Program-made: the position numbers and the translations under genes
Shown: positions 6,001-24,013 of the stretch, piece by piece
Position numbering within the stretch: the first letter of the stretch is position 1
Layout of the letters: the number at the start of each line of letters is the position of its first letter
The notes under the pieces: generated by a model
Databases searched by the model: none
Seen by the model: only the letters and a program-made list of their open reading frames with translations
Told to the model about the DNA's origin: nothing
From: a virus
Reading direction: 5' to 3' (one strand)
Virus record (IMG/VR): IMGVR_UViG_3300029448_000438
Span: 1 to 24,013 of that record
DNA length: 24,013 nt

Positions 6001-9000
6001 TCATTAATGTAGCAACAAATGACATGAATTTTGTTGAATTGTATTTGACTCATGATGATACAAATACATTTATGGCAGAATCTTTCTTTGATGCAGATGG
6101 ATCTTCGATAACAAAACAATCGATAGGAAGTTTTGATTCAAATATCAATAGTGGAATATGCTCTATTACTTATACTAATGACACATCTTCAAGTGTTAGA
6201 CTTCGTTCCAAGATTATCGGAATAGGTACTACATCCGTGGGTGTAGGAACTTATAGATTTAATGCAATTGGACAACCAGACGATTCTGTTAGAAGTGCAA
6301 TTTATCAATCGAATTATTCTGTGGGAATTGGAACAACGAATGTAGTCGGATTAGATTCTTCATTATTTAATGCAGTTAAGTCTATAGTTCAAGTATCTTG
6401 TGGATCAACCAAAGCTTTACATCAAGTATTAACTTTACATGATGGCAATTATGTTTATGCTCAACAATCTGCATTTATTTCGGTAGATAGTAATTTACCA
6501 AATCCAGATTATGAAGAATATGATAATACTTCAGGTATAGGAACATTCGGTGTTGAATATTCTGGAGATCAATTTGTATTAGAATTTCATCCAGATACTG
6601 AATTTGTAAATGCAGAAGTAAAGGTATTATCATTTAATCAATGCTTCTATTCTGGTATTGATAATAATATTCCTATTGGACTGCAAAATGGCAATTCATT
6701 AGATTATATGGACGCCAAATATTATAATGCTCATAATGGAGATAGGGTTAATTTAACATCATTTGAATTGACTAGTAATGGAAATCCAATATTTGCAAAA
6801 ACTTTCAACCCAAATGATAGTGATATTTTAAATACTTCTACTGGAAAATTTACCATACAAGATCATTTCTTAAGAAATGATGAAGAATTGATTTATACTC
6901 CTGGATCTAGTTTTGTTGGTGTTGGGTCAACACCTATGCAATATTATAATGCGACGGCAGGTATTACAAGCACACTCCCATCGCGTGTATTTGCTGTTGT
7001 CGAATCAAATGATGTATTTCAGATTTCTACTACCAGATCTGGAACTCCAGTTACCTTTGTTGGAGTCGGCACTGGTAATTTGCATCAATTTGAAATGCTT
7101 AAGAAAATTGAAAAAACTGTTATTTCTATTGATAATTTAATTCAATATCCTTTAATGTTTACTCCAATAAAACATAATTTGAGTGAAAATATTGATAATG
7201 GAAATATTGGAATAAGCACAACCAGAACAGTATTCTCTTTGTCCGGAATATCATCAATCGCTGCAAAAGATATTTTAAGAGTGGATGATGAATATATGAA
7301 AGTTATTAATGTTGGTTTTGGAACAACAACTATTGGACCAATAACAGGAATAGGAACAACTGCTCTTATAGAAGTTTCTAGAGGTTACGTGGGAAGTTCT
7401 GCAACATCTCATCTTAATATAACTGGAGTTGCAACTGTTTATAAAGGTGCATATAATATTGTAAATAATAAAATATTCTTCACAGATCCTCCTAGAGGAA
7501 AGATTGGTGAAGAAAAAGATTTTAGTAATTTGGATTTTCCAACATCCGACTTTAATGGCAGAGTTTATTTAAGAAGCGATTATTCAAGCAATGAAATTTT
7601 TGATGATGTCTCACATGAATTTAGTGGTATAGGGAGAACATTTACAATATCTGTAGGAGGAGCAAACACTGCTGGAATAGGCACAACAGAATCTCAAAGA
7701 TCTGGATTACTTTTGATTAATGGTATATTCCAATCACCTACAACTCTCAATAATCCAAATGGTAATTTTGATATTATTTCAAATAATGCTGGTATATCAA
7801 GTGTTGTATTTACTGGAATTAGATCTGCTACTGATTCATCTTTCATTGTAGAATCAGATTATGATGTTAATTTAAATGAAATACCAAGGGGCGGAATAAT
7901 TATTTCTCTTGGATCAACAGGTGGTGTTGGATATGCTCCTCTTGCTGGAGCTTCTGTTACTGCCGTAATGGATGATGGTGGCAATATTCTTTCGGTTGGT
8001 ATAGGTACTACCGATAATGTTGGTTCTGGATATTATGGAGATCCTTCTGGAATAGGAGTAAGTATATTTGATCCAACTGGAAATGGAAGTGGGGGGGAAG
8101 TGAGTGTATCTAGTATTGGTGTCGGAGGAACATTATCTTTTAATGTAGATTCTGAGGGCAACAATTATTCCGCAGACACACAAATATTTGTATCCCCTCC
8201 GTCTTATGAAAATTTAGATGTTGTAGGAATTTCTAGATTGGGTATTGGGTCTACGACTGATACTGGAATAGGTTTACAAATGTCGGTGGAAGTTGGAGGA
8301 GCATCAACAACTGTTGGTATTGGATCAACTTATGCGAAGATACAAACATTTAAAATCACAAGACCTGGGTATTCCTTTAAGAAGGGAGATAAATTTACTC
8401 TTGTTGGATTAGTAACTGATTCTAGATTATCCTCCCCGATAGAAGAATTTACACTGGAAGTTTTAGACACTTATCAGGATTCATTTGCTTTCTGGAGATT
8501 TGGCGATTTGGATTATGTCGATGATATTGCAGAATATCAAGATGGTGTAAGAACAAGATTCCCATTAACTTACAGAGATGGAGTTTCAATTAGTTTTGAG
8601 TCAAATAAATTATTAAATACAGAGATTAATTTTGCCAATCTATTATTAGTATTCGTGAATGGTATCCTCCAAGTTCCTGGAGATGCATATGAATTTAATG
8701 GGGGAACTTCTTTTAAATTTAAAGCAGCTCCCAGACCAGATGATAAAGTTGATATATTTTTCTATAAAGGAACTGACGGATCAGATACTCAATCTATCAC
8801 TAATGAAAAACCAATTTTAGAAAGAGGTGATGAATTACAAATTACTGGATCTACTGTCAATTTAGAAACGCAAAAAGAAAGATTGGTATTTGATATCACA
8901 AATTCTGATAGGGTTGAAACTAATCTTTATACTGGTCAAGGATTGGATGATACTAATTATAGACCAGTTAATATTATTAAGCAGAAAACTGATAAAATTA

Positions 9001-9992
9001 TTTCGGGTGAAAAAGTTTATAAAACAAGAGATTCTTTAGAGGCATATATTTATCCCACTGCTAAAATAATTGGTGATTTAAGCTCTTCAGAAACCAATTC
9101 TATTTTTGTAGATAATGCTAAATTTTTTGATACAAATGTTGCCGCCGCAGGAACGTTTGATGCAATGATAGTTGGTGGATTGCCAAATCCAATAACAGCA
9201 TCAGCAACTGCATCAATTAACTCCGATGGTGAGGTAACAGGATTTACTATTTCTGGAGGTGATGGATATGTTAGTATTCCTACGGTATCCATATCAGCAC
9301 CTCCAGAAATTGCTGTTGGTGTTGGAACAACTGCCACTGCTACAGCAACAATTTCAAATGGATCTGTCAATGCAATTTCAATTACTAATCCAGGACTTGG
9401 ATATACCATTGCTCCAAAAGTATTGATTTCATCACCAAATATAATTTTAGATAACATTACTGATTTAAAAGGTGATGAAACAAGAGGATATTCTGGTTTA
9501 GTGACTAGTATAACTCCCATAACAGTCGGTGGAGATCCTGCAATTCAATTGTCACTTCTTAAAACTTCTCCGGGGTCATTAAACGAGTTGCAAACTGATA
9601 CACCGATTTATGTTTTCAATACTCGTATTGGATCTGGCGTAACTGCTATGGACACTCTGGGTATTCATACTGTAGGCATAGGAACTACATTTGCGGATAA
9701 CATTTATCATATTGTAAATGCAAATACTAGCGATTTTCCTGATTTAGCAATTGTGAAGTGTAAGGTACAAGTCAATACTGGATTAACATCTATTGGTGAT
9801 AATAATAATCCTGTAGGAGAATTCTCATGGGGTGAATTGAGAAATGCTGGTGGATTTGGTAGATCTTCTTCAATTTCTATAGGTGTTACTGGATTAACAA
9901 TTGATGCTGGTTTGACAACATTTCCAGTTATTCAAAGAAGAGGATCCATTTATGGAATTAGAGATACAGGAGCTCTTAAAAAACAATTATAA
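1..9992 (+). CDS. Giant virion structural protein, 5'-truncated (GGxGY/GIGTT repeats, YHYH-like domain); position of T4 gp7
   Basis: The frame is open from the first complete codon at position 3 to the TAA at 9990-9992, giving 3,329 visible residues; the start lies upstream of the window. A TTG at 363 is only an internal codon, because 120 in-frame sense codons precede it. The protein is Ser/Thr/Asn/Gly-rich, has no visible membrane segment and looks like a long chain of small beta modules. Early copies of a GGxGY repeat lie at 541-1863. A YHYH-like domain at about 1975-2350 shows AYDGNPIYGPYG, YAYHATVD and FPYFIG. A non-repeat block lies at about 5218-5690. About fifteen GIGTT-type motifs fall between 3150 and 9690. 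Two more GGxGY units lie at 9241-9430, close to the C-terminus. It lies directly upstream of gp8, where T4 has the wedge protein gp7 (about 1,030 residues), but I see no clear similarity to gp7. A baseplate or host-facing virion role is inferred from context and from similar large proteins in marine T4-like phages. Confidence 0.85.
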   Translation, partial: PSTDDGVTNIPVPKSYQIDVNIKSSSVTISANSAGKFSGKVGINSYSIIEFSDTLPFSSGDKIYYSPENSPIVGLETGVYFAEIINESNLRLYSSVSFIKSQSNFKTFKAPTESGSHNFTLNSQRESVIGAQKILRKFPSNINISDSEKAKTIPGPTGMLINGVEIFNYKSKDKVYFGPLKSVNVVNGGEGYDVVNPPVVSVSAAGTVNALVQPVLSGKVTKIHVDTQEFDIDKIIAIGVTGGNGSGLVVDPILTKRVREVFFNAETTNNLGGINTVGETITFQTNHNFTDGEEIIYNSNGNLPIGINTSGELELPISTLSNNQRYFAKVLNNTSIQLYKKQSDYSSGINTVGFSTINTQGIHKFTTASFKNTLSEIKIVDGGNYFNRKLIVNPSGISTHFDNVYFENHNFNNGDLVEYSFETSGITGLSTNNRYYILKQDDNSFRLSDAGIGGTITSNFENKTYVDFTSTGSGYQYFKYPDISAFLIYNPVGFGTTSQEGQLVTLTPEVRGEIIDSYLYEGGTGYGSSVVNFESKPVISIKNGKEGRVRPIVINGLIDSIQLEYGGLEYNSVPDVIITDSSGMGSGAEARAIISNGKVTEVKVINPGIGYSNTSTSISLKSAGIGGKFDSSVRDLTLNLKNKLGKEVLIESENKLQYAVCGYSTSYFDVSGHSPIIGWAYDGNPIYGPYGHTDPNNSQSLIVTLSSGYSDESIDNVIDRPSSDDFVAGTFVEDYKFNNSGDLDEYNGRFSKTPEFPNGVYAYHATVDTISGEPVFPYFIGNLFKSNVILENFDLNQSFDFINSDLIRNTFPYRLSDNNTSYDFVFGSDDVRDQKVKVDSVSEGSINDFKIIDSGESYKVNDSLNFDSSETEGSGLIAKVSELEGKEIIDIRNISTEEYENAVVTRLSDNQVKVNIIPSHDLLDGDYVTLSGFTTVTQLNNLFEIGITTYKSILIDTVTTSSGIGSTEISVSFIPPEVSVGSSVKIKTDTLQVLNISRNSNLLRVQGSRVGYSTGDIVEYVPDSFTISVNTPIFDSKINDRVYFNPTESVGVGTTAGISTAVSVYYGGITEIRQIPTQSIFIEGHSFKNNQKLTFTIPSSGGAISISTNGSGEFDMPSTVYATNRGRNLIGIKTGITSAFSEVFFHTNGSDKDDYLLESDYGQFTGKVSKITSVIAVSTAHGLSNGDSVNLTVQPNLNVGIGTSAKVDIIRNSSGTIGINTLVNPQIEVIRGNNLVFDTSDSSLSGYNLKIFTDKEFENEFVATGSTTNFNVVSSATTTTINYSENIPTKLYYNLERSGSISTTDTDVKNYNEILYVDSVYQNQYTVTGVGETTFTINLIENPEKVSYAKTECSILKYTTTSKTASGGISDIKILSGGSGYKKIPIVSSITTVSGKNCYIIPTSKTIGNIKQTRIINENFEYPSDKTLRPKALISTLIEKKNSNTVGIISVTNGGSNYTEAPSIILVDSVSKNRINKGSFKVNILGSSIDSVDIVVEPKGLPDHEIEAYTTNNTNGISITKVDSSSSTTFTCHITTPSSGFTVFPFEVNDEVFIEGIEKISNDGSGFNSEDYNFQFLKISAIDETAVPNNTVTIDVSGISTNTGIAKTITNSLPIITNSNIYPSFSVLKKVSKFLVGEKIIVDNIERDLIVIESNSNYIKVRGLYELNVDDILTGKESGNVATVNSIDTTSNDGEFSINYSIEKNDGWSNNIGKLNENDQVTADNDYYQNLSYTVKSPITYQELITPVNNMLHTSGLKNFADVGITSVTKNVGIETNGSEMIVTQLYDIQDEQKVDTIRQFDYVRDYEILSDSSKFIEFKNRILTDYVRINSDLVKTIDDISGEFNSLGDNPDEFLNILNVDDYDTYTNLLFRIESGDDSELQLTELTLLRSGSTNVLVQRGGIVNDESDMSLDYGSFSIETDITNESYLRFTPNDPYNTDYDIRLLGNKFTSNSVGVATTSVGFVDLINSTKSITSNQTTDLVSVDVDDIKSLYANIQVINVATNDMNFVELYLTHDDTNTFMAESFFDADGSSITKQSIGSFDSNINSGICSITYTNDTSSSVRLRSKIIGIGTTSVGVGTYRFNAIGQPDDSVRSAIYQSNYSVGIGTTNVVGLDSSLFNAVKSIVQVSCGSTKALHQVLTLHDGNYVYAQQSAFISVDSNLPNPDYEEYDNTSGIGTFGVEYSGDQFVLEFHPDTEFVNAEVKVLSFNQCFYSGIDNNIPIGLQNGNSLDYMDAKYYNAHNGDRVNLTSFELTSNGNPIFAKTFNPNDSDILNTSTGKFTIQDHFLRNDEELIYTPGSSFVGVGSTPMQYYNATAGITSTLPSRVFAVVESNDVFQISTTRSGTPVTFVGVGTGNLHQFEMLKKIEKTVISIDNLIQYPLMFTPIKHNLSENIDNGNIGISTTRTVFSLSGISSIAAKDILRVDDEYMKVINVGFGTTTIGPITGIGTTALIEVSRGYVGSSATSHLNITGVATVYKGAYNIVNNKIFFTDPPRGKIGEEKDFSNLDFPTSDFNGRVYLRSDYSSNEIFDDVSHEFSGIGRTFTISVGGANTAGIGTTESQRSGLLLINGIFQSPTTLNNPNGNFDIISNNAGISSVVFTGIRSATDSSFIVESDYDVNLNEIPRGGIIISLGSTGGVGYAPLAGASVTAVMDDGGNILSVGIGTTDNVGSGYYGDPSGIGVSIFDPTGNGSGGEVSVSSIGVGGTLSFNVDSEGNNYSADTQIFVSPPSYENLDVVGISRLGIGSTTDTGIGLQMSVEVGGASTTVGIGSTYAKIQTFKITRPGYSFKKGDKFTLVGLVTDSRLSSPIEEFTLEVLDTYQDSFAFWRFGDLDYVDDIAEYQDGVRTRFPLTYRDGVSISFESNKLLNTEINFANLLLVFVNGILQVPGDAYEFNGGTSFKFKAAPRPDDKVDIFFYKGTDGSDTQSITNEKPILERGDELQITGSTVNLETQKERLVFDITNSDRVETNLYTGQGLDDTNYRPVNIIKQKTDKIISGEKVYKTRDSLEAYIYPTAKIIGDLSSSETNSIFVDNAKFFDTNVAAAGTFDAMIVGGLPNPITASATASINSDGEVTGFTISGGDGYVSIPTVSISAPPEIAVGVGTTATATATISNGSVNAISITNPGLGYTIAPKVLISSPNIILDNITDLKGDETRGYSGLVTSITPITVGGDPAIQLSLLKTSPGSLNELQTDTPIYVFNTRIGSGVTAMDTLGIHTVGIGTTFADNIYHIVNANTSDFPDLAIVKCKVQVNTGLTSIGDNNNPVGEFSWGELRNAGGFGRSSSISIGVTGLTIDAGLTTFPVIQRRGSIYGIRDTGALKKQL
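541..1863 (+). repeat. Dispersed GGxGY-type protein repeats, N-terminal set
   Basis: Degenerate copies of a hydrophobic-strand, then G-x-G-Y, then P-x-V strand unit are encoded near 541-615 (NGGEGYDVVNPPVVSV), 1141-1165 (VDGGNYF), 1554-1590 (YEGGTGYGSS), 1681-1741 (YGGLEYNSVPDVIIT) and 1806-1863 (INPGIGYSN). They are diverged at the DNA level, so they are old protein repeats and not recent tandem duplications. Confidence 0.6.
3150..9690 (+). repeat. Interspersed GIGTT-type heptad-like motifs
   Basis: About fifteen copies of [SAT]-V-G-[IVF]-G-[TS]-T are scattered through the giant ORF, for example near 3150, 3600, 6220, 6320, 6913, 7313, 7348, 7672, 7996, 8237, 8313, 9315 and 9673. They are encoded by similar but non-identical stretches of the form ggtataggaactac. 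Spacing is irregular, which suggests a recurring beta-turn at the edge of small strand modules and not a continuous fibrous repeat. Confidence 0.55.
9241..9430 (+). repeat. Two tandem GGxGY beta-repeats near the C-terminus of the giant ORF
   Basis: Two adjacent units are clear here: ISGGDGYVSIPTVSIS and ITNPGLGYTIAPKVLIS. They closely resemble the four units inserted into gp14 at 21049-21530, including the spacing from Gly-Tyr to the Pro-x-Val strand. Confidence 0.65.
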
Positions 9993-11589: not shown

Positions 11590-14500
11590 ATGGCACAAAA
11601 AAGAAATTTAAACGTTAATCCATATTACGACGATTTCGATAATAATAAAAATTTTTATAAAGTCCTATTTAAACCAGGATTTCCAGTACAAGCTAGAGAA
11701 TTAACTACTTTACAATCAATATTACAGAATCAAGTCGAATCTTTTGGTAAAAATATTTTTAAAGAGGGATCCATGGTTATTCCTGGTGGAATAACTTATG
11801 ATCCTAGTTTTTATGCTGTAAAATTAAATGCTATAAATTCTGGAGTTGAAGTTTCAACATACATTAGTAATTTTATTGGAGTAAAGATAACGGGTCAAGT
11901 ATCCGGAATAACAGCAACTATAAAATATGTTGCATTTCCTGGTGATCCTAACATTGATGACTTAACAGTTTATGTAAAATATGATAGTTCTGGATCAGAT
12001 TTTGTTTTTACTGCTTTTGAAAATGGAGAATCTTTAATTGCTGATAAAAATATCACATATGGAAATACTACAATAAATGCTGGGACTCCATTTGCTTCAT
12101 TATTGTCTTCAAATGCAACTTCAACGGGATCTGCAGTTTCTATTTCGGATGGTGTTTATTTTATTAGAGGGTATTTTGTTAATGTTTCTAGTGAAACTAT
12201 TTTATTAGATGAATACTCCAATACTCCTTCCTACAGAGTTGGTCTAAAAGTTGACGAATTACTTATTGACGCCAAAGATGATAATTCATTATATGATAAT
12301 GCAAAAGGATTTTCAAATTTTGCTGCTCCAGGAGCTGATAGACTAAAGATAGGTCTTTCTTTAACCAAAAAATCATTAGAAGATTTAGATGATAAAAGTT
12401 TTGTCGAACTTTTAAGAGTAGACAATGGTAAGATAAAAAAAATACAAGAGAAAACTCAATATAATATTATAAGAGATTATCTTGCAGAAAGAACATTTGA
12501 GGAGTCTGGTAATTATGCAGTAGTTCCTTTTTTACCAACCCTACAAAATTCTCTAAATGATAAATTGGGAAATGATGGTCTTTATGATAAGAATCAAAAA
12601 ACAGAGCAATTTAATGAACCATCGGATGATTTATTGTGTGTAAAAGTTTCTCCGGGAAAAGCATATGTAAGAGGATATGATGTAAAAACTGATTCTACAA
12701 TAGTATTGGATGTAAATAAACCAAGAGAAACAAAATCCAATAATACTACTGTTCCATTTTCAATGGGAAACGTATTAAGAGTTAATAATGTTTCTGGACA
12801 TCCAACTCAATCTGGAATTATTAATTTTCATAATAGACATAACAGTGAAGGCATAGGTATTGGTAGTGCTAGAAATTATACATTTAATGTTACAGATGCT
12901 GCTTATAGTGGTTCTTCCACTAAATGGGACTTATATCTTTATGATATTCAGACATATACAAAATTATTTTTAAATACATCTTTTAGTGATTCTCAATTAC
13001 CAGCATCCTCCTTCGTAAAAGGAAAAAATAGTGGTGCAAATGGATATTCTGTGTCTGGTGGTGGAGATAGTGACTTAATTACTTTAAGTCAGGTTTCTGG
13101 AAAATTTGCAATTGGAGAACAAATTTTAGTTAATGGTGTTGAAGTTTCAAATTCAATTAAAAATGTTGTGAGTTATGGAACTCAAGACATTAAATCGGTT
13201 AGTCAAAACACTGATGAATTTAAAGCAGATGTCGTATTGGAAAGTTTTCCATTGCCCAATAATATTTCCGAAATTGTTATTGATGGACCAAATGCAACAG
13301 CAACAAGCCCTGGTGGTAATTTTACAGGAATAAAAACTGATAGTGTTATTAGGTATAAAAGAAATACTGCGGGAGAGACAGCAGAAACATTCAATAGAGT
13401 AGTTGAAGTCTCTTCGGATGGTCTTACGTTATCATTAACAGGAATTGGTACAGTAACTGGAATATTTGACGGTGGGTATAATAATACAGGAAGTTTTAAT
13501 GCAAAAATAGGATCCCCTATTATAAGAGGAGAAGAAGATGCAAGACTATATGAAAAACTTCCTGATAACAATATTTCTTCTTTAGATCTTTCTTCATCCA
13601 ATCTAAAAATTCGACTGCAGTCGAATCAAACGCAAACTTCTAATTCTGTTGGCATAGTAACTATGTCAATCAGTGATTTTGATACGACAGGAATATCGAC
13701 AGTTTCTTTTAGTGCTTTTGATGCTGAAAGATATTCCTTATATAATAATAGTGCTCCAAGATACATTGGAACGATAACTTCCGATTCATTTAAAATTGAT
13801 ACTGCGAATAATACAGTCTCTTTCTCTGGACTTTCTGCAGACAGGGCATATAACTTAGATGCTACATTAACTAAAACAGGTATAAAAAGTAAGAAGAAAA
13901 CATATACTAGAAGTAAAGAACTTTCAGTAAATTTATCAAGATTAGATGGGTCTGGTACAAATAGTAATAGTTCAACAAATGATGGATTAACTTATAATAA
14001 TTATTATGGTCTTAGAGTGCAAGATGAAGAGATATCATTAAATTATCCAGATGTTGCAAAAGTTATTGCTATATATGAATCTTTAAATTCTTCCAATCCA
14101 ACATTGGATAAGATTACTTGCTTAAGTACATCAAATATTACTAATGCGGCTATTATTGGTGAAAATATCATTAGTAACTCTGGAAATGCAGTTGCTAGAT
14201 TCGTTAAAAGTACTACTGATAATGTTGCTGATATTGTATATTTAAATTCTAGTAGATTTAGACAGGGTGATGAAATTGTTTTTGAAGAATCAAATATAAC
14301 AACAACAATAACAAATATTTCACTAGGAAATTATTCAAATATAACTGATAATTTTGTTCTTGATAAAGGTCAAAGGGATCAATATTATGATTATTCTAGA
14401 ATTGTAAGAAAATTAGATTCTACCATACCATCAAAAAGATTATTGATCATATTTGATCATTATGAGGTAGATTCTTCTGACAATGGAGATTTATTCACTG

Positions 14501-17500
14501 TAGAAAGTTATGATAATGGAAGATATGGACAAGATATACCCGAAATTGGTGTAGATGGAGTAAGAGCAACAGACACACTTGATTTTAGACCAAGAGTTTC
14601 CCCCTTTACAGGATCATCAAAATCTCCATTTGATTTTAATTCAAGGACATTTGAGGGTACAAATAGAATAGTTGCTCCTGATGAAGATTCTTCGGTTGGA
14701 TATAATTATTATATTGGTAGAATTGATAAACTGTATATTGATAAATTGGGTGTATTGAGTATTAAGGAAGGACAGTCTGGCATAAATCCAAAACCTCCGA
14801 TTGTTAGTGATGAGTCCATGGAAATAGCCACTATATCTCTTCCACCTTATCTTTTTAGTCCTCAAGATGCAGAAATATCACTAGTTGATAATAGAAGATA
14901 TACGATGAGAGATATTGGATTTATTGAGGATAGAGTTGAAAATCTTGAGGAGGTTACGTCTCTTTCGTTACTTGAGATTAACACACAAACATTGCAGATA
15001 AAGGACGCCGATAATAGAGATAGATTTAAAAGTGGTTTCTTTGTAGATGATTTTAGAAATAATTCTCTTATTAACTTAGACTTTTCAACCATAGAAATTG
15101 ATGAAGAAAATAATGAAATGAGACCTTTCCTTTCTAGAAAGTCTTTAAAAGGAGCAATAGCAATATCTGGTAATAATAGAAGTCCAGAAACTATTGACTA
15201 TGAAGATCCTTCACTAGAATTATTGGATAATAATGTTAGGAAAAAAGGCAGATCTATTACTTTAGACTATGAAGAGGTTGTTTGGATCAGTCAAAATGTT
15301 GCAACAAAGTTTGTAAATGTTAATGAATATCATGTTGTCGCATATAGGGGAGATGTAACTTTATCACCACAGAATGATATTTGGACTATTGTCCAATCCT
15401 CTACAAATGTAATAAACAGAACGAATGTTTTTGGTCGTCGTGGTGGTGGAGGAGTGTTTAGAAATACTGGTTCTACTACCTCTGTTTCTAGATCTGAGAT
15501 TAGATTTGCCAGATCGAGAAATACTCAATTTTCAGCTACAGGTTTAAAACCAAATACAAGATATTATCAGTTTTTAGGTTCTGAAGGTAATTTAGATTTT
15601 GTACCAAAATTATTAGAAATTGAGGATGTAAGTGGATCTTTTACAGTTGGAGAAGAAATTGTAGGATATCAAGTTGATGGTGATAGTAATTCGGTTGCAA
15701 GAATAAGATTTAGATTATCTAAACCAAATCATAAAACTGGCATTTTTAATTCTCCAGATACAATATATGAGTTTAACCCTTACGAATATCCACAGTCAAC
15801 CAGATTACCAGATTTTTATACTGAGTCATCTACGGTTTTAAACGTTGACACCGCATCTTTGGCACAAAGTGCTCAAGGAAGATATAGCGGATATGTTGAA
15901 AAAGGATTTATACTTGAGGGACAAAGCAGTGGGGCAACTGCCTCTGTGAAAGATTTGAGATTAATAACCGATGCTTTTGGAGATCTTATAGGAACTTTCT
16001 TCATTAGAAATCCAAATAATACTGGAAATATAAGAATAGAAAATTCTACTCATACATATAAGTTAACCAATAGTTCAACAAATAGAGAAGCACTTATCAG
16101 TGAAGAATTAGATACTTTACTTTCTTTTGCAAGAACCCAATACATTACAAGAGGAATTTTAGAGAGAAGATTCACAACAATTACCAATACTACAACTGTA
16201 ATTATTGGTTATGGTGATCCATTAGCACAATCATTTACTGTAGGTGGAAACATTGATGCACCTTCGGCAATCGGGAGAAATGATGACGAAAATGGAATTT
16301 TCTTGACTTCTGTCAATTTATATTTTGCAACTATTGACGAGCAAAATAAACCACTAAGGGTTGAAATTAGAAGCATGGAGTTGGGAACACCAACCACACA
16401 AAGAATAGGTGAAGCAGCTCATTTAACTCCTAAAAAGTTTATTGATGATGGAAATGGAAATATTTCCGAACAAGTTGTAATTAAAACTTCTACTACGGGA
16501 CAAGAAGCAACCAGAGTTACATTCCCAGAACCAATATACTTAGCTCCAGGAAGAGAATATGCATTAGTTATTGTATCAGAATATAGCGATCAATATCAGG
16601 TTTGGTCGGCAGAAATGGGTAAGAAGAGTGTGTTGGATCAAGACCTTCCAGATGCAGATGCTGGTGTATACTCTCGCCAATATGCATTTGGCAGTTTATT
16701 CATGTCTCAAAACGGTTCTATTTGGACCGAAGATCAAAATCAAGATCTTAAGTTTGATCTTTTTAAAGCTAAATTTACTTCAAATGCAGGTACTGCTTTC
16801 TTCTACAATTCTCCATTGGATACTAGTAATGGATATAAGAGATTGTTAGATAATAATTCGATAAGAACTTTACCAAAAACTGCAACTATTAGAATTACAC
16901 CAGTTTCAAAAGATGCTAGTGATTTTAATGATATGGAAACTACATTAAGTCCTGGTAGAAAACTTGCAGGAGATGATAACTATCCTGGTAGTATAGCATA
17001 CATCACTGGAGTTGGTTGTAGTGTTTTTAATGATGGGAGTGATGTTGGAATTATCACTGGTGGAACAAACTATGGCATCAATGCTTCAACAAACGTAAGC
17101 ACATTCAATATTGTTGGTAGTGGCGAAGGTTTAACTTTGGATATTCCTGCAACTACAAATGGAACTCTTCAATCTGCTAATTTATTAGTTAATAATGGTG
17201 GTAGTGGATACAAAGTTGGTGATGTTGTTGGTATTGTCACAGCAGATACTACCGATAGAACTGGTAGAGATGCTCAGATAAGTATAAGCGAGATTGGGGG
17301 AATTGATACTCTTTTCGTATCTGGTATGCAAGGTGATACTGGATCCGGCAAAGCATTCAATGTTGGTATGGGTGTAAGTTATTATGATGATAATGGTGTT
17401 GTTGTTTCAATGGCAGATACTACAATAACCGAAATTGTTGATGGTCCCACTTTAAACTCTGGAAATTATATAAGAGTTAATCATTTTAACCATGGAATGT

Positions 17501-18828
17501 ATAGTGGAACTAATAAAGTTTTATTAGATGATTTGAAATCTAGTGAAACACCGACTACATTAGAATCTGAATTGCTGTCATCTGATGTAAACAAAATAAG
17601 TGTTGGTAGCACCACTGATTTTGATACTTTTGAAGGAGTTGTTGTTAGCGCTGCAAATACAGGATATGTGAAAATTGGAAGAGAAATTATAGGATATGAA
17701 GAAGTTGCCACTGGAAATGAATTAAGATCGATAACAAGAGGTGTTGATAATACAAAAATAATTAATCATAAACTTTCTGATGCTGCGGGAAATCCATTAA
17801 CGATACCTGTGTACAAATATCAGTTGAATGGAGTTTCTTTGAGGAGAATAAATGGTGTCAATCTTGATGTATCTTCCGAAGGAATGGATATTAATGGATA
17901 TTATATTAGTATAAGTAGATCTGGAAATGGATCTGGAAGAAACACTGATACTTCCGATTATGCACAATTATCATTTAAAAATGAGTTACAAACTGGAGGC
18001 AGAGATATAACTTCTTCTGAAAATATAGTATTCACTGAAGTTATTCCTAGTTTCCCACTTCTCATTCCAAATGATTCAACATCAGTTTCTGGATCAATAA
18101 GAACTATTAGTGGAACAAGTGTTGATGGTAGTGAATCTTCTTTCGTTGATAATGGTTACGAACCAATAGAACTTAATGAGGTTAATAAACTTTCATCTAT
18201 ACGAATGGTTGCTTCTGAAATTAATGAAGATGAGTATTTAGATACAATGCCATCCAATAAATCTTTAACTACAGCAATAAGACTATCGACAACAGATGAA
18301 AATCTTTCACCACAAATTTTCTATACTGAAGAGGCTGGAACTATTCTTCAAAATCCATTGATTAATAATCCAGTTTCTGATTATGCTACTGATAATAGAG
18401 TTAACTCTCTGCAGTATGATCCACATTCTGCAATTTACGTTTCTAACACAGTCAATTTAAAAAATCCTGCAACAGCACTTAAAGTTTTAGTTGCAGCATA
18501 TAGACATCAAACTGCTGACTTTAGGGTGCTTTATAAATTAAATAGAGCAGATTCTAGTGAAGTGGAGCAAGAATTTGAATTGTTTCCTGGTTATGATAAT
18601 CTTACATTTGAAGATGATGCTCTATTAACTGTTAGGGATCAATCTAAAAATAGTGGAAGATCAGATGTATTTGTTAGAGCAAGTTTAGAGGATGAGTTTT
18701 TGGATTATGAATTTACAGCAAATAATCTGGATTTATTCACCGGATATACAATTAAAATTGTGATGTCTGGAACAAATGCAGCATATTATCCAAGATTCAA
18801 AGATTTAAGAACTATTGCAATACGATGA
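11590..18828 (+). CDS. Giant DUF4815-family tail/fibre-like virion protein
   Basis: The 2,412-residue product opens with the signature of the DUF4815 family of myophage tail proteins: NPYYDDFDNNKNFYKVLFK, then PVQARELTTLQSILQNQ and VIPGG in the first 75 residues. Later family-type blocks are VSPGKAYVRGYDV (about 351-364), TLDFRPRV (about 996), RRYTMRDIGFIEDRV (about 1102) and DRFKSGFFVDDF (about 1143). A module starting GDPLAQSFTVGG (about 1540) runs through FLTSVNLYFATID to EYALVIVSEYSDQYQVW. The C-terminus IKIVMSGTNAAYYPRFKDLR is also typical. Insertions relative to shorter family members include a Gly-rich linker RRGGGG near residue 1284, SGA-type modules, and a GGSGY repeat at about 1870. 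No membrane segment is seen. Its place after gp8 and before gp13 is that of T4 genes 9-12 and wac, so a fibre or fibre-attachment role is likely but inferred. Its stop overlaps the next gene as ATGA. Confidence 0.85.
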   Translation: MAQKRNLNVNPYYDDFDNNKNFYKVLFKPGFPVQARELTTLQSILQNQVESFGKNIFKEGSMVIPGGITYDPSFYAVKLNAINSGVEVSTYISNFIGVKITGQVSGITATIKYVAFPGDPNIDDLTVYVKYDSSGSDFVFTAFENGESLIADKNITYGNTTINAGTPFASLLSSNATSTGSAVSISDGVYFIRGYFVNVSSETILLDEYSNTPSYRVGLKVDELLIDAKDDNSLYDNAKGFSNFAAPGADRLKIGLSLTKKSLEDLDDKSFVELLRVDNGKIKKIQEKTQYNIIRDYLAERTFEESGNYAVVPFLPTLQNSLNDKLGNDGLYDKNQKTEQFNEPSDDLLCVKVSPGKAYVRGYDVKTDSTIVLDVNKPRETKSNNTTVPFSMGNVLRVNNVSGHPTQSGIINFHNRHNSEGIGIGSARNYTFNVTDAAYSGSSTKWDLYLYDIQTYTKLFLNTSFSDSQLPASSFVKGKNSGANGYSVSGGGDSDLITLSQVSGKFAIGEQILVNGVEVSNSIKNVVSYGTQDIKSVSQNTDEFKADVVLESFPLPNNISEIVIDGPNATATSPGGNFTGIKTDSVIRYKRNTAGETAETFNRVVEVSSDGLTLSLTGIGTVTGIFDGGYNNTGSFNAKIGSPIIRGEEDARLYEKLPDNNISSLDLSSSNLKIRLQSNQTQTSNSVGIVTMSISDFDTTGISTVSFSAFDAERYSLYNNSAPRYIGTITSDSFKIDTANNTVSFSGLSADRAYNLDATLTKTGIKSKKKTYTRSKELSVNLSRLDGSGTNSNSSTNDGLTYNNYYGLRVQDEEISLNYPDVAKVIAIYESLNSSNPTLDKITCLSTSNITNAAIIGENIISNSGNAVARFVKSTTDNVADIVYLNSSRFRQGDEIVFEESNITTTITNISLGNYSNITDNFVLDKGQRDQYYDYSRIVRKLDSTIPSKRLLIIFDHYEVDSSDNGDLFTVESYDNGRYGQDIPEIGVDGVRATDTLDFRPRVSPFTGSSKSPFDFNSRTFEGTNRIVAPDEDSSVGYNYYIGRIDKLYIDKLGVLSIKEGQSGINPKPPIVSDESMEIATISLPPYLFSPQDAEISLVDNRRYTMRDIGFIEDRVENLEEVTSLSLLEINTQTLQIKDADNRDRFKSGFFVDDFRNNSLINLDFSTIEIDEENNEMRPFLSRKSLKGAIAISGNNRSPETIDYEDPSLELLDNNVRKKGRSITLDYEEVVWISQNVATKFVNVNEYHVVAYRGDVTLSPQNDIWTIVQSSTNVINRTNVFGRRGGGGVFRNTGSTTSVSRSEIRFARSRNTQFSATGLKPNTRYYQFLGSEGNLDFVPKLLEIEDVSGSFTVGEEIVGYQVDGDSNSVARIRFRLSKPNHKTGIFNSPDTIYEFNPYEYPQSTRLPDFYTESSTVLNVDTASLAQSAQGRYSGYVEKGFILEGQSSGATASVKDLRLITDAFGDLIGTFFIRNPNNTGNIRIENSTHTYKLTNSSTNREALISEELDTLLSFARTQYITRGILERRFTTITNTTTVIIGYGDPLAQSFTVGGNIDAPSAIGRNDDENGIFLTSVNLYFATIDEQNKPLRVEIRSMELGTPTTQRIGEAAHLTPKKFIDDGNGNISEQVVIKTSTTGQEATRVTFPEPIYLAPGREYALVIVSEYSDQYQVWSAEMGKKSVLDQDLPDADAGVYSRQYAFGSLFMSQNGSIWTEDQNQDLKFDLFKAKFTSNAGTAFFYNSPLDTSNGYKRLLDNNSIRTLPKTATIRITPVSKDASDFNDMETTLSPGRKLAGDDNYPGSIAYITGVGCSVFNDGSDVGIITGGTNYGINASTNVSTFNIVGSGEGLTLDIPATTNGTLQSANLLVNNGGSGYKVGDVVGIVTADTTDRTGRDAQISISEIGGIDTLFVSGMQGDTGSGKAFNVGMGVSYYDDNGVVVSMADTTITEIVDGPTLNSGNYIRVNHFNHGMYSGTNKVLLDDLKSSETPTTLESELLSSDVNKISVGSTTDFDTFEGVVVSAANTGYVKIGREIIGYEEVATGNELRSITRGVDNTKIINHKLSDAAGNPLTIPVYKYQLNGVSLRRINGVNLDVSSEGMDINGYYISISRSGNGSGRNTDTSDYAQLSFKNELQTGGRDITSSENIVFTEVIPSFPLLIPNDSTSVSGSIRTISGTSVDGSESSFVDNGYEPIELNEVNKLSSIRMVASEINEDEYLDTMPSNKSLTTAIRLSTTDENLSPQIFYTEEAGTILQNPLINNPVSDYATDNRVNSLQYDPHSAIYVSNTVNLKNPATALKVLVAAYRHQTADFRVLYKLNRADSSEVEQEFELFPGYDNLTFEDDALLTVRDQSKNSGRSDVFVRASLEDEFLDYEFTANNLDLFTGYTIKIVMSGTNAAYYPRFKDLRTIAIR
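13609..13626. repeat. 18-base perfect palindrome inside the DUF4815 gene
   Basis: The bases ATTCGACTG are followed immediately by their exact reverse complement CAGTCGAAT, with no spacer. It is read through as part of the DUF4815 coding sequence. It is a symmetric duplex site and cannot form a normal hairpin loop without opening the centre. No function is known. Confidence 0.6.
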
Positions 18829-20408: not shown

Positions 20409-21838
20409 TGGCATTAAATTCTTTCTTTTTACAAGGATCTTCTGCAGAACAAAGATTGATTCAATCTTTGATAAATGAGCAATTAAAAATTTATGGTGTA
20501 GAAGTAACTTACTTACCAAGAAAACTTGTAAAGGAAGATACGTTATTTACAGAATTACAGTCTTCTGTATTTAATGATAATTTTTCAATAGAGGCATATG
20601 TTAATACATATGAAGGATATGGAGGTGCGGGAGATATTCTCACAAAATTTGATATTGCACTAAAAGATGAATTGGTTATTACTATTTCTAAAGAGAGATT
20701 TGAAGATTTTATTGCTCCTTTTTTAGAATCACTTCCAGACGATGAAATAATTATTTCGAATAGACCTAGAGAAGGTGACTTAATATATTTCCCTCTCGGT
20801 AAAAGAATATTTGAGGTTAAATTTGTTGAGCACGAAAAACCATTTTATCAGTTAGGTAAAAATTATATTTATGAATTGAGATGTGAGCTCTTTGAATACG
20901 AAGATGAAATGGGTGGATGGGATACTCAAACTCAAATTACAGATGAAATTGATTCTGTATTGGAAACACAAGGATTTATCACTACGTTGAAATTGATTTC
21001 AATTGGGTCTACAGCAAGTGTTGGTGTAACTACTGCAACTGGATATATTAGAAAAATATCATTAACTGATGATGGATCTGGATATACTAAAGTCCCAACG
21101 GTGGCAATATCAACTGCTCCTCCGGGAGGAACCGATGCTACTGCAGTAGCAATTACATCAGCAATTAATAATGTATTTTCTATCAATGAAATTCTATTAA
21201 CAAATCCTGGTGCCGGATATACAGTTGCGCCCACAGTCAGTATAGTTAGTGCAGGTCAAACTATAACTGGTGTTGGGTATACGACTTATGGTGTTGGAGC
21301 AGCAGCAACAGCAATATTAGTAACTTCATCTGCTGGTATTAGTGGAGTTACAATCACTTCTGGCGGAAGTGGATATCCATCTCCACCCACAATTACTTTT
21401 GCCACACCAATTTCTGGAATTGGTACAGCAGTTGGTAGACTTTCAGTTACAACTGACAATATCGTTGATAAGGTCTTTATTTCTGATGCTGGTATTGGAT
21501 ATACTTCTGCAACTGCTTCTGCAATAATTTCTGATCCACCTATCATAACTGGAATAGGTACGTATCAATATAATGAAGAAGTTATTGGATCCATTTCTGG
21601 TGCAAAAGCAAGAGTTAAAACATGGGATGTTACAACAAATACTCTCAAAGTGGGTACTACAGACGGTACTTTCTTGGCATCGGATATAATTGTAGGATCC
21701 TCTTCTTCTGCCAGATATAGTGTTGACTTCATCGAGACAGCAGAATTTAATGATAAATATGACAAGAGTGATGAGATACAAGATGAGGCAGATCTCATTA
21801 TAGATTTTTCAGAATCAAATCCATTCGGTAACTACTAA
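20408..21838 (+). CDS. gp14: Neck protein gp14 with a large internal repeat insertion
   Basis: The 476-residue product is nearly twice the length of T4 gp14 (256 residues). Residues 1-165 carry the gp14 core: YGVEVTYLPRKLVKED, AYVNTYEGYGGA, then PREGDLIYFPLGKRIFEV (from about 119) and KPFYQLGKNYIYEL. These match T4 GVECYYVPREYV, AYLNSFEGYEGA, PKEGDLIYFPMDNSLFEI and DPFYQLGQN in order. The T4-like tail returns only at the end, where FSESNPFGNY parallels T4 SFESSPFDN. Between them, about residues 190-445 hold four GGxGY beta-repeats (DGSGYTKVPTV, PGAGYTVAPTV, GGSGYPSPPTI, DAGIGYTSATA) and one SGA-type module near 380-441. gp14 partners gp13 in the neck, so the insertion would add an exposed domain around the head-tail junction. 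It overlaps gp13 and gp15 by one base each. Confidence 0.93.
   Translation: MALNSFFLQGSSAEQRLIQSLINEQLKIYGVEVTYLPRKLVKEDTLFTELQSSVFNDNFSIEAYVNTYEGYGGAGDILTKFDIALKDELVITISKERFEDFIAPFLESLPDDEIIISNRPREGDLIYFPLGKRIFEVKFVEHEKPFYQLGKNYIYELRCELFEYEDEMGGWDTQTQITDEIDSVLETQGFITTLKLISIGSTASVGVTTATGYIRKISLTDDGSGYTKVPTVAISTAPPGGTDATAVAITSAINNVFSINEILLTNPGAGYTVAPTVSIVSAGQTITGVGYTTYGVGAAATAILVTSSAGISGVTITSGGSGYPSPPTITFATPISGIGTAVGRLSVTTDNIVDKVFISDAGIGYTSATASAIISDPPIITGIGTYQYNEEVIGSISGAKARVKTWDVTTNTLKVGTTDGTFLASDIIVGSSSSARYSVDFIETAEFNDKYDKSDEIQDEADLIIDFSESNPFGNY
21049..21530 (+). repeat. Four GGxGY beta-repeats inserted in gp14
   Basis: Four units, each with strand, G-x-G-Y turn and P-x-V/I strand, lie at about 21049-21113, 21184-21247, 21346-21402 and 21466-21530. 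The fourth has lost the Pro. The unit-to-unit interval varies from about 120 to 162 bases. They match units in the giant ORF more closely than anything in T4 gp14. Confidence 0.7.
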
Positions 21839-22632
21839 TGCTGGGAACTTATTACTATCACGAAATTATTAGAAAAACAATTGTTAGTTTCGGAACTTTA
21901 TTTAATAATATAAGTATAAAACATAAAGATTCCGCTGGAGATGTTGTAAGTGAATTAAAAGTGCCTTTAGCTTATGCTCCTGTGCAAAAGTTTTTGGCAA
22001 GATTAGAACAAGAGGATTTAAATAAACCAGTAGCAATTACATTGCCAAGGTTGGCTTTTGAAATGACTGATATTAGTTATGATCCCTCAAGAAAATCTGG
22101 AGTAACTCAAACTTTTAAAGCATCTGATGGCACAAATTTAAAAAAAGTTTTTATGCCAGTTCCATATAATATTGGATTTGAATTAAATCTTTTGACAAAG
22201 TTAAATGATGATGCTTTACAAATAGTAGAGCAAATTTTACCATATTTTCAACCAGCATTTACTTTAACAGTTGATCTAATTAGTTCGATAGGTGAAAAAA
22301 GAGATATACCGATAGTATTGGATAATATATCTTTTCAGGATGATTATGAAGGAGACTTTTCTACAAGAAGAGCATTAATTTATACTCTCAAATTTACTGC
22401 AAAAACATATCTCTTTGGTCCTATTTCTGATACAACTGATGGGCTTATCAAGAAAGTTCAAGTTGATATTTCCTCTTCAAATGATATTTCATCTGCAAAG
22501 CGTGAAATGAGATACACTGCTACACCAGATCCCATTGATGCTGGTCCTGATGATAATTTTGGATTTGATGAGGGATGGGAATTTTTGACCGATTCTCTTT
22601 CTTACAGTCCTACACAACAAAAAGATATTTGA
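21838..22632 (+). CDS. gp15: Tail completion / sheath-stabilising protein gp15
   Basis: The 264-residue product is close in length to T4 gp15 (272 residues). It begins MLGTYYYHEIIRKTIVSFG, then LFNNISIKHK, against T4 MFGYFYNSSFRRYATLMG, then LFSNIQIKRQ. The segment LQIVEQILPYFQPAF (about residues 127-141) is nearly identical to T4 FQIVEQILPYFQPHF. TLPRLAFEMTDISYD, the RRALIYTLKFTAK strand and the GLIKKVQVD segment also follow the T4 order. gp15 forms a hexameric cap on the upper end of the tail tube and sheath and provides the attachment surface for the neck. The start ATG overlaps the gp14 stop by one base (TAATG), which suggests stoichiometric, coupled translation. gp16 begins twelve bases downstream. 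Confidence 0.94.
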   Translation: MLGTYYYHEIIRKTIVSFGTLFNNISIKHKDSAGDVVSELKVPLAYAPVQKFLARLEQEDLNKPVAITLPRLAFEMTDISYDPSRKSGVTQTFKASDGTNLKKVFMPVPYNIGFELNLLTKLNDDALQIVEQILPYFQPAFTLTVDLISSIGEKRDIPIVLDNISFQDDYEGDFSTRRALIYTLKFTAKTYLFGPISDTTDGLIKKVQVDISSSNDISSAKREMRYTATPDPIDAGPDDNFGFDEGWEFLTDSLSYSPTQQKDI

Positions 22633-22644
22633 TAGGTTAGTTGT

Positions 22645-23070
22645 ATGAGTAATAAATATAATGATCTTGATGAGGATCTTAATACGGAAAGTAGTATTGT
22701 AGAAACAACTGCCGAAAAAGTACAGATTTCCAAATCAAAGGATAATGATATTGAGAAGGATTATGAATATACCAGGGCAAATTTATATTCTTTGATCGAA
22801 AAAGGTCAAGAAGCAATTAATGGAATCATGGAACTTGCTGGTGAAGGAGCAAGCCCAAGAGCATATGAAGTTGCTGGACAATTGATTAAAAGTGTTGCAG
22901 ATACAACTGATAAGTTGATTGATCTTCAAAAGAAAGTCAAAGAAGTTGAGGAGGATACTGTTAAGACAACTAATAATGTAACTAATAATGCCGTGTTTGT
23001 CGGTTCCACTTCAGAACTTCAGAAAATGTTAAAGCAAGGTTTTCTAAATAATAATAAGGATAATAATTAA
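22645..23070 (+). CDS. gp16: Terminase small subunit gp16
   Basis: The 141-residue product sits directly after gp15, as in T4 (T4 gp16 is 164 residues). It is acidic, mostly helical and hydrophilic. The conserved core is YTRANLYSLIEKGQEAING (about residues 47-65), then ASPRAYEVAGQLIKSVADT (about 69-87) and DKLIDLQKKVKEVEED, a helical hairpin likely to form the oligomerising coiled coil of small terminases. Its role is to recognise packaging substrate and stimulate the large terminase gp17. The C-terminal 35 residues are Asn/Lys-rich and probably disordered. The start follows a weak AGG site. The next gene starts five bases after the stop, but it does not look like gp17. Confidence 0.9.
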   Translation: MSNKYNDLDEDLNTESSIVETTAEKVQISKSKDNDIEKDYEYTRANLYSLIEKGQEAINGIMELAGEGASPRAYEVAGQLIKSVADTTDKLIDLQKKVKEVEEDTVKTTNNVTNNAVFVGSTSELQKMLKQGFLNNNKDNN

Positions 23071-23074
23071 AAAG

Positions 23075-24013
23075 ATGTCTGGATCGCTTCATCATTGGTT
23101 TAAGGGATCAAAATCAAAAGATGGAAAGCCTGGTTGGGTTCAATCTGATGGATCTCCATGTGCAAATGAACCTGGAGAAACCAAAACACCAAAATGCTAT
23201 AGTAGTGCAAGACTTGCTGCCTTAAAGAGAAAAGGTAAAAAAGGTGAAAATCTTATAAAATCTGCTGATAGACGTAAAAGAGAAAAAGATCCAGGTCAAC
23301 AATCAAAATCTGGTGCAGCAAAACCAACTAATGTAAAAACTTTTGCGAAAGGCAGAAAAAATAAAAATTACGTAAAACCAGAACCAGGATTAAAAGAAAC
23401 TATGGAAATTATAGAAGGTCAAAAAGATGTAAAAGGAAAAGGAAGTGGTAAGAAAGATGCCTGCTATCATAAGGTCAAGTCTCGCTATTCTGTATGGCCA
23501 TCTGCATATGCTTCAGGAGCACTTGTAAAATGCCGTAAAGTTGGTGCTGCTAACTGGGGCAATAAGTCAGAATCTGTGACTATTGAAACTGCAGATGGAA
23601 AGACATTTGCGGAATTTATTGATATTATAGGACCAAATGAAGTGAGAGAAGCAGCAAAGAAATGTTGGCCTGGATATGAAAAAAAAGGAACCAAAAAGAT
23701 GTTTGGTAAGACCTATAATAACTGTGTGAAAAAAGAAGAAAATGAAATTGATGAAATGATTTCTACATCTGGTGTTAGAATGCCAGATCAAAAAGAAGTT
23801 GAGGCAAGACAAGCACGTAAAAAATCTCCCGAAAAGAAAAAACTTCCTAAGGGATTTGTGAAGTTTTACGATAAGCACGGAAAAGGTCGCATTATTGACG
23901 GTAAAAAGGTTTATGAGGATTTTGAAAAAGAAGTGCCATCAGGAGATATCAAAAAACTTTCTAAAAAAGCAGTAAAAAGAATTGACACTAATGTAAGTGG
24001 TCATGTTGATAAA
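23075..24013 (+). CDS. Lys/Cys-rich composite protein after gp16, 3'-truncated
   Basis: An uninterrupted frame runs from ATG 23075 to the window edge, 313 codons with no stop. Three blocks can be seen. Residues 1-110 contain KDGKPGWVQSDGSPCANEPG, a Cys at 29 and 41, then a very basic tract (AALKRKGKKG, SADRRKREKDPGQQSKSG). Residues 128-160 read ACYHKVKSRYSVWPSAYASG and LVKCRKVGAANWG, which I recall as the pattern of the DUF5872 family; this was not checked. Residues about 190-225 read CWPGYEKKGTKKMFGKTYNN followed by CVKKEENEIDEM, a Cys-bounded module I associate with several marine T4-like phage proteins. The function is unknown. The basic, Cys-containing composition would suit nucleic-acid binding or structural packing, and its place at the terminase genes invites a packaging link, but nothing seen proves either. 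I see no Walker A motif, so this part is not gp17. Confidence 0.8.
   Translation, partial: MSGSLHHWFKGSKSKDGKPGWVQSDGSPCANEPGETKTPKCYSSARLAALKRKGKKGENLIKSADRRKREKDPGQQSKSGAAKPTNVKTFAKGRKNKNYVKPEPGLKETMEIIEGQKDVKGKGSGKKDACYHKVKSRYSVWPSAYASGALVKCRKVGAANWGNKSESVTIETADGKTFAEFIDIIGPNEVREAAKKCWPGYEKKGTKKMFGKTYNNCVKKEENEIDEMISTSGVRMPDQKEVEARQARKKSPEKKKLPKGFVKFYDKHGKGRIIDGKKVYEDFEKEVPSGDIKKLSKKAVKRIDTNVSGHVDK

Follow-up and report, generated by a model that had tools for sequence, protein, structure and literature searches.

A basic mosaic protein encoded after the small terminase gene of a T4-like cyanophage is a candidate internal-head polyprotein

In T4, gp17 overlaps gp16 (96194-96688 and 96672-98504), so that a gene standing between the small terminase gene and gp17 is a real difference from that phage. 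Such an intervening gene was observed in the DNA studied here, and the question is what its product does next to the packaging genes. A preliminary description had proposed that it could bind DNA, enter the head with the genome or join the packaging machine. The window analysed, 24,013 bases long, is an entire IMG/VR record and shares its end. Judged by gp15, the virus belongs with the cyanophages among the T4-like myoviruses, and its closest isolate is Synechococcus phage S-SRM01. In the record of that isolate two labels are swapped (L106 10569-12290 and 12353-14447; QPX48175 and QPX48176): the protein called "tail sheath protein" is in fact the large terminase, with 75% identity to S-SM2 gp17, and the sheath goes under the name "terminase large subunit". 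Upstream of its neck genes, the window further contains two very long frames of structural type, at 3-9992 (3329 aa, 5' end open) and 11590-18828 (2412 aa).

The gene after gp16 and its modules

As listed in Table 1, the gene is composed of several blocks. It begins with an ATG 4 bases past gp16 and is stop-free to the record end. Its product contains 60 Lys among 313 residues, with a net charge of +34 and a pI of 9.8, and exactly six Cys, which fall into three pairs (29/41, 130/153 and 197/217), one per block. All six were invariant across 26 aligned relatives. These properties, together with the profile matches of gp16, bore out the earlier picture of a basic, composite, Cys-paired protein right after the small terminase, and the CANEPG/CYSS, WPSAYASG and CWPGYEKKG..NNCVKK blocks named there are all present. 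Comparison with four relatives gave dN/dS values of 0.09-0.23; the frame is therefore translated and under purifying selection. Profile family searches with the window protein revealed no terminase domain, no solved structure matched it by sequence, and the last 30 bases of the record had no match in any other IMG/VR contig.

Table 1. The gene after gp16, its neighbours and the parts of its product (arrows mark the putative cut)
Feature	Window position	Residues	Strand	Evidence or comparison
gp15, tail sheath stabiliser	21838..22632		+	PF16724 E 2.4e-86; closest isolate S-SRM01, 75.8%
gp16, small terminase	22645..23070		+	PF11053 E 4.6e-8; phrog_445 E 6.5e-55
Mosaic basic ORF, T4-GC 119 / phrog_727 family, 313 aa, open at record end	23075..24013		+	
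Module B, HHWFKGSKSKDGKPGW..C..PGETKTPKC..KPTNV, Cys pair C29/C41	23081..23347	3-91	+	
Putative prohead-protease site IIE↓G	23408..23416	112-114	+	linker pLDDT < 50 at 103-125
Module C, GKKDACYHKVKSRYSVWPSAYASGALVKCRKVGAANWGNK, Cys pair C130/C153	23420..23575	116-167	+	alignment; lone ORF in L103
Short module O, VTIETADGKTFAEFIDIIGPN	23576..23638	168-188	+	compare VSIEDANGNHYAEFIDIIKPEPLKP in L014, L019, L024
Putative prohead-protease site VRE↓A	23642..23650	190-192	+	pLDDT < 50 at 164-191
Module D, KKCWPGYEKKGTKKMFGKTYNNCVKKE, Cys pair C197/C217, predicted beta hairpin	23657..23737	195-221	+	
Putative prohead-protease site IDE↓M	23747..23755	225-227	+	junction statistics
Next basic stretch (FVKFYDKHGKGRIIDGKKVYE; SGDIKKLSKKAVKRIDTNVSGHVDK), incomplete	23756..24013		+	similar pieces in L094, L031, L037

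In module B, alignment of the relatives showed W8, F9, G20, W21, C29 and C41 to be invariant. Module C is the block that had been called DUF5872-like. The WPSAYASG block stood, but the label did not: with E 0.032 and 15.3 bits, against a curated cut-off of 27.5, membership in DUF5872 (PF19197) was rejected, and the weak likeness over profile positions 12-42 is a lead only. A fold search with the model of module C matched no solved structure, the model itself (pLDDT 66) being too weak to weigh. KTFAEFIDII in module O was considered as a capsid-targeting sequence and rejected, since it is a recurring module (IEDANGNHYAEFIDIIKPEP) and has no E at position 10. Behind pieces similar to the last basic stretch, L094, L031 and L037 continue with further modules and DUF6321-type ends. 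An AlphaFold model of the whole window protein was of low confidence (mean pLDDT 58, pTM 0.22) and was used only for the disordered linkers; it put IIE↓G and VRE↓A in or beside unstructured linkers. To judge by sequence, each Cys pair could form a disulphide or supply half of a metal site, and the charge makes DNA binding by the window protein plausible.

A family of shuffled modules

The window protein matched phrog_727 (E 4e-62) over two stretches. This family was named T4-GC 119 by Sullivan et al., and phrog_3477, 12753 and 38880 stand alongside phrog_727. A tblastn search returned 366 phage records with it, almost all of them from Synechococcus or Prochlorococcus phages, with members in S-SM1, S-SM2 and many Kyanoviridae; in S-B43 the match is annotated "structural protein, cyanophage only T4-like GC0119". 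This spread and the dN/dS values speak against a gene absent from relatives and untranslated, which the preliminary description had kept in mind, and no enzyme is joined to the frame, as had also been considered. Among 80 IMG/VR loci, gp16 lay upstream of the family gene in 65, usually at 145 bp or less. A downstream gp17 was found for 44 loci, of which 18 had it within 44 bp and the others at 0.3-3.9 kb. The window gene fits this usual place, with gp16 directly upstream; gp17 would fall past the window end. The gap between gp16 and gp17 has been described as a hot spot where the gene content varies (PMC3037559), and many unrelated genes, including plastocyanin, gnd and zwf, occupy it. P-SSM5 has its family gene one interval earlier, with gp15 before it and gp16 behind it; in S-CREM2, gp160, which carries B, C and D modules, lies downstream of the large terminase gene (TerL) at a distance of about 17 kb. 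A 707-aa basic protein adjoining gp16, S-SZBM1_194 (L087 3253-5376, minus strand), is laid out in the same way, with a TYREFIAE↓G inside the chain; BLAST gave no match between it and the window protein.

Complete relatives are longer than the window protein (median 562 aa, pI 9.3-10.0), carry more modules and usually end in a C-terminal DUF6321, in line with the earlier remark that the gene may extend beyond the window. Fifty nonredundant full-length relatives displayed 34 distinct module orders. The interchangeable modules B (GKPGW..PKC), C (WPSAYASG) and D (CWPGYEKKG) are shared with the window, and further ones in the relatives include C..NPKGFSQ.AHC, a YCPKC block, the helical-looking HEYSM..AWVQSKITKAADY, DUF5661 and DUF192. 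Module C alone makes up a complete 52-aa ORF in the metagenome-assembled contig L103 (5986-6171). Given this lone ORF and the many module orders, the modules are self-contained units. The contig with the lone module C was binned as Myxococcales and is probably viral. In two loci (L029 3176-5245 and L030 2381-4471) module C is interrupted by an intein-like Hint insert, which falls between WPSAYA and SGALVKC; in L030 the insert matched PF01079 with E 7.8e-4, under the curated cut-off. A motif [FY]SNWR(E/D)(E/D)(L/F), often just before a junction site, was present in 22 of the 50 family proteins (e.g. L014, L016 and L031) and is possibly a second targeting signal.

Protease-like sites, targeting tags and virion proteins

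The T4 prohead protease gp21 cuts after L/I-X-E (PMC9026906), and the aligned cleavage place of the MCP reads FLTE↓A in T4, LLTE↓A in S-CREM2, ILTE↓T in S-SM1 and MIAE↓Q in S-SM2. In the family, [ILVMF]xE ends 6 residues or less upstream of 207 of 261 module starts (79%), compared with 6.1% for the remaining positions of these proteins, shuffled sequences giving 19.4 ± 4.0 of 261 starts; as the module starts were set by our own patterns and counts from related proteins are not independent, these numbers are descriptive, with a large contrast. The enrichment was present in 34 of 42 upstream/downstream module contexts. Strict [LI]xE was found at 37% of junctions against a background of 2.9%, a 13-fold difference, and just these junctions obey the L/I rule of T4, from which the specificity of the cyanophage gp21 is borrowed. 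In the window protein, IIE↓G and IDE↓M follow the strict [L/I]xE rule and VRE↓A only the relaxed one; at the place of IIE↓G, most relatives show xxE[A/G/V]. The fragments predicted after cleavage have a median of 69 aa, and 86% of them are positive. By the placement of these motifs, the window protein resembles a gp21-type prohead protease substrate, for which it is a candidate.

In the capsid-targeting sequence of T4, residues 4 and 7 serve for targeting and residues 8 and 10 for processing (PMC9026906); in the T4 record, the N-terminus of ipII/ipIII reads MKTYQEFIAE↓A. A family member, L050, starts with MKTFNQFIDE↓A and continues directly with module D, and in 28 loci the family ORF is followed by a gene whose product has an N-terminus of the type MKSFQQFLSE↓S. 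S-SZBM1_192, which lies in the gp16-gp17 gap, starts with MKTFKQYITE↓A and carries DUF6321. Full tag motifs were found in family proteins 7 times, against 0.46 expected by shuffling; the six besides L050 hold the tag inside the chain. The window ORF, which starts MSGSLHHWFKG with module B first, has no N-terminal tag of the form M..[FY]..F[IL].E and is not classed with the T4-type internal head proteins.

Another protein in the gp16-gp17 gap, S-SM2_108 (L002 3868-4293), reads MKTLKQFLKE↓TPTNSVGNGGYTSAGGQTVAGYD, and its part behind the tag closely copies the arm of the mature capsid protein (QPTNAVGNGGYTSSGGQTVAGFDP in S-SM2 gp23). The same arrangement of tag and arm copy was seen in L057 1737-2168, and residues 17-70 of S-CREM2 gp160 (L088 25343-26236) matched the major-head-protein family phrog_696 (E 4.8e-10). 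Copies of the MCP N-terminal arm thus occur in unrelated small proteins (S-SM2_108, L057, S-CREM2 gp160 and S-SZBM1_134), in two of them directly behind a tag, and from this likeness they may be anchors of cargo to the shell.

The published virion proteome of S-CREM2 comprises 52 proteins (PMC10665884). A scan of 218 of the 219 numbered ORFs of this phage, the long tail fibre gp85 being left out, with the pattern ^M.{0,5}[FYL]..F[ILMFV].E returned exactly five matches, all in T4 register: the SAM hydrolase gp6, gp13, the kinase gp14, gp136 and the cytidylyltransferase gp154. All five are published virion proteins (5/51 vs 0/167, Fisher 6e-4; 0.04 expected with shuffled N-termini), a result that varies with the pattern, the residue classes of which were fixed when some of the sequences were already known. 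With a looser pattern the figures were 5/51 vs 5/167 (p 0.056). The tag test was not significant in S-SZBM1 (1/28 vs 1/177), a phage with only 30 detected proteins. The Cas9-like gp12 of S-CREM2 (OR473000) has a tag at residues 19-25. Tags may be the reason why the SAM hydrolase, the kinase, the cytidylyltransferase, gp13 and gp12 are in S-CREM2 particles (OR473000; L091, L088).

Module-bearing proteins themselves were also found in virions. In S-CREM2, gp160 was detected with 7 unique peptides and 13.1% coverage and gp137 (DUF6321) with 4 unique peptides and 4.1% coverage, a low coverage for both (PMC10665884). S-SZBM1_139, with a D-like module, is among the proteins detected in virions by published mass spectrometry; S-SZBM1_192 and S-SZBM1_194 are absent from the proteins detected in S-SZBM1 virions. 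S-SZBM1_190 had been a candidate for a family member found by mass spectrometry and was rejected as unrelated, with no match to the window protein.

Explanations and known systems

Taken together, these findings point to a window gene that encodes an internal-head polyprotein, which gp21 would cut into small basic proteins that are packaged together with the DNA; we give this reading a probability of about two in three. In this scheme, linkers with gp21-type sites would join the modules, which are small and basic and mostly hold a single conserved Cys pair. The precursor would enter the core during prohead assembly, as suggested by the T4-type tag in some members and neighbouring genes, and gp21, by cutting after [I/L/V/M]xE, would release basic proteins of about 30-110 aa. 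The freed proteins would remain with the DNA inside the head and, like the T4 internal proteins, could leave together with it on ejection. We infer the cleavage at the junctions, the targeting route of the untagged window protein and its retention with the DNA; ejection and a host-directed role of the freed modules would follow by analogy. Entry into the head with the genome, one of the roles proposed at the outset, is thus supported by the module-bearing relatives in virions, the T4-type tags and the protease-like sites. A bolder version, which we regard as tentative and rather unlikely in full, is a combinatorial payload locus of cyanophages: numerous small Cys-paired proteins would be made as one polyprotein, released by the protease in the head and injected along with the DNA, the host being their target, with the modules swapped like cassettes between phages and the MCP arm copies serving as a second tag.

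Of the rival explanations, a disposable scaffold survives best, and we consider it improbable. The protein would help to build the prohead core, be chopped and be mostly expelled on maturation, like T4 gp67, gp68 and gp22, its modules being idle after packaging. The dense junction-type sites of the T4-GC 119 family would suit such a role, as gp21 cuts gp22, gp67 and gp68 into several pieces. However, relatives are found in mature virions, and the strict conservation of the modules (invariant Cys and Trp, whole domains such as DUF192) would be odd for disposable material; furthermore, the window protein carries +34, whereas T4 gp22 (-28) and gp67 (-25) are acidic, gp68 being basic (+9). Next in rank, and a little less probable again, is a virion protein that stays uncut, flexible and built of many modules, with a structural or DNA-condensing role; its xxE stretches would be nothing but acidic linkers. 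The S-B43 annotation as a structural protein agrees with it, cleavage being so far inferred, but the specific [ILVM]xE[A/G/..] pattern recurs across many module contexts, 13-fold over background in its strict [LI]xE form, and the tag-plus-site layout of the T4 internal proteins also occurs in the cyanophage system. An accessory part of the DNA-packaging motor, acting with gp16 and gp17, is very improbable: the usual place between the two genes is in its favour, but that place is not fixed, as shown by S-CREM2, P-SSM5 and the loci with 0.3-4 kb to gp17, unrelated genes share the interval, and the profile searches revealed no terminase domain, so that the earlier suggestion of a part in the packaging machine was not upheld.

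If the internal-head reading is true, what is now an orphan gene family in abundant marine viruses would turn into something that can be tested, a string of head cargo cut by a protease, and the T4 capsid-targeting system would be at work in cyanophages. It would also explain the cytidylyltransferase, SAM hydrolase and kinase in purified S-CREM2 particles, and provide a simple sequence rule to predict head-entering genes among those without a known role.

Capsid-targeting sequences, prohead proteases and the T4-GC 119 family are all already known. By sequence and place the window protein belongs to T4-GC 119 / phrog_727, and that family is known only as hypothetical or structural; in the openly available papers searched, we found no description of its processing, targeting or mechanism, and no account of capsid targeting in cyanophages or of a shuffled head polyprotein. 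With T4 gp22, gp67 and gp68 the family shares the presumed multiple gp21 cuts per chain. In contrast to these, of which gp22 and gp67 are acidic scaffold and gp68 is basic, it consists of basic mosaic modules with relatives in virions. In the giant phages SPN3US and phiKZ, head ejection proteins are likewise substrates of a prohead protease, which cuts at xxE-type motifs (PMC5694885), but there long N-terminal propeptides are removed from large proteins, whereas the cyanophage family forms shuffled strings of tiny modules. Profile searches with the family revealed no homology of its mature parts to the T4 internal proteins. The resemblance to IPI, IPII, IPIII and Alt lies in the kind of protein, small basic head cargo, and in the same type of 10-residue tag with an xxE cut in the cyanophage family and its neighbours. 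The T4 internal proteins have one gene each with its own tag, whereas the cyanophage family places many modules in one frame and most of its members are untagged.
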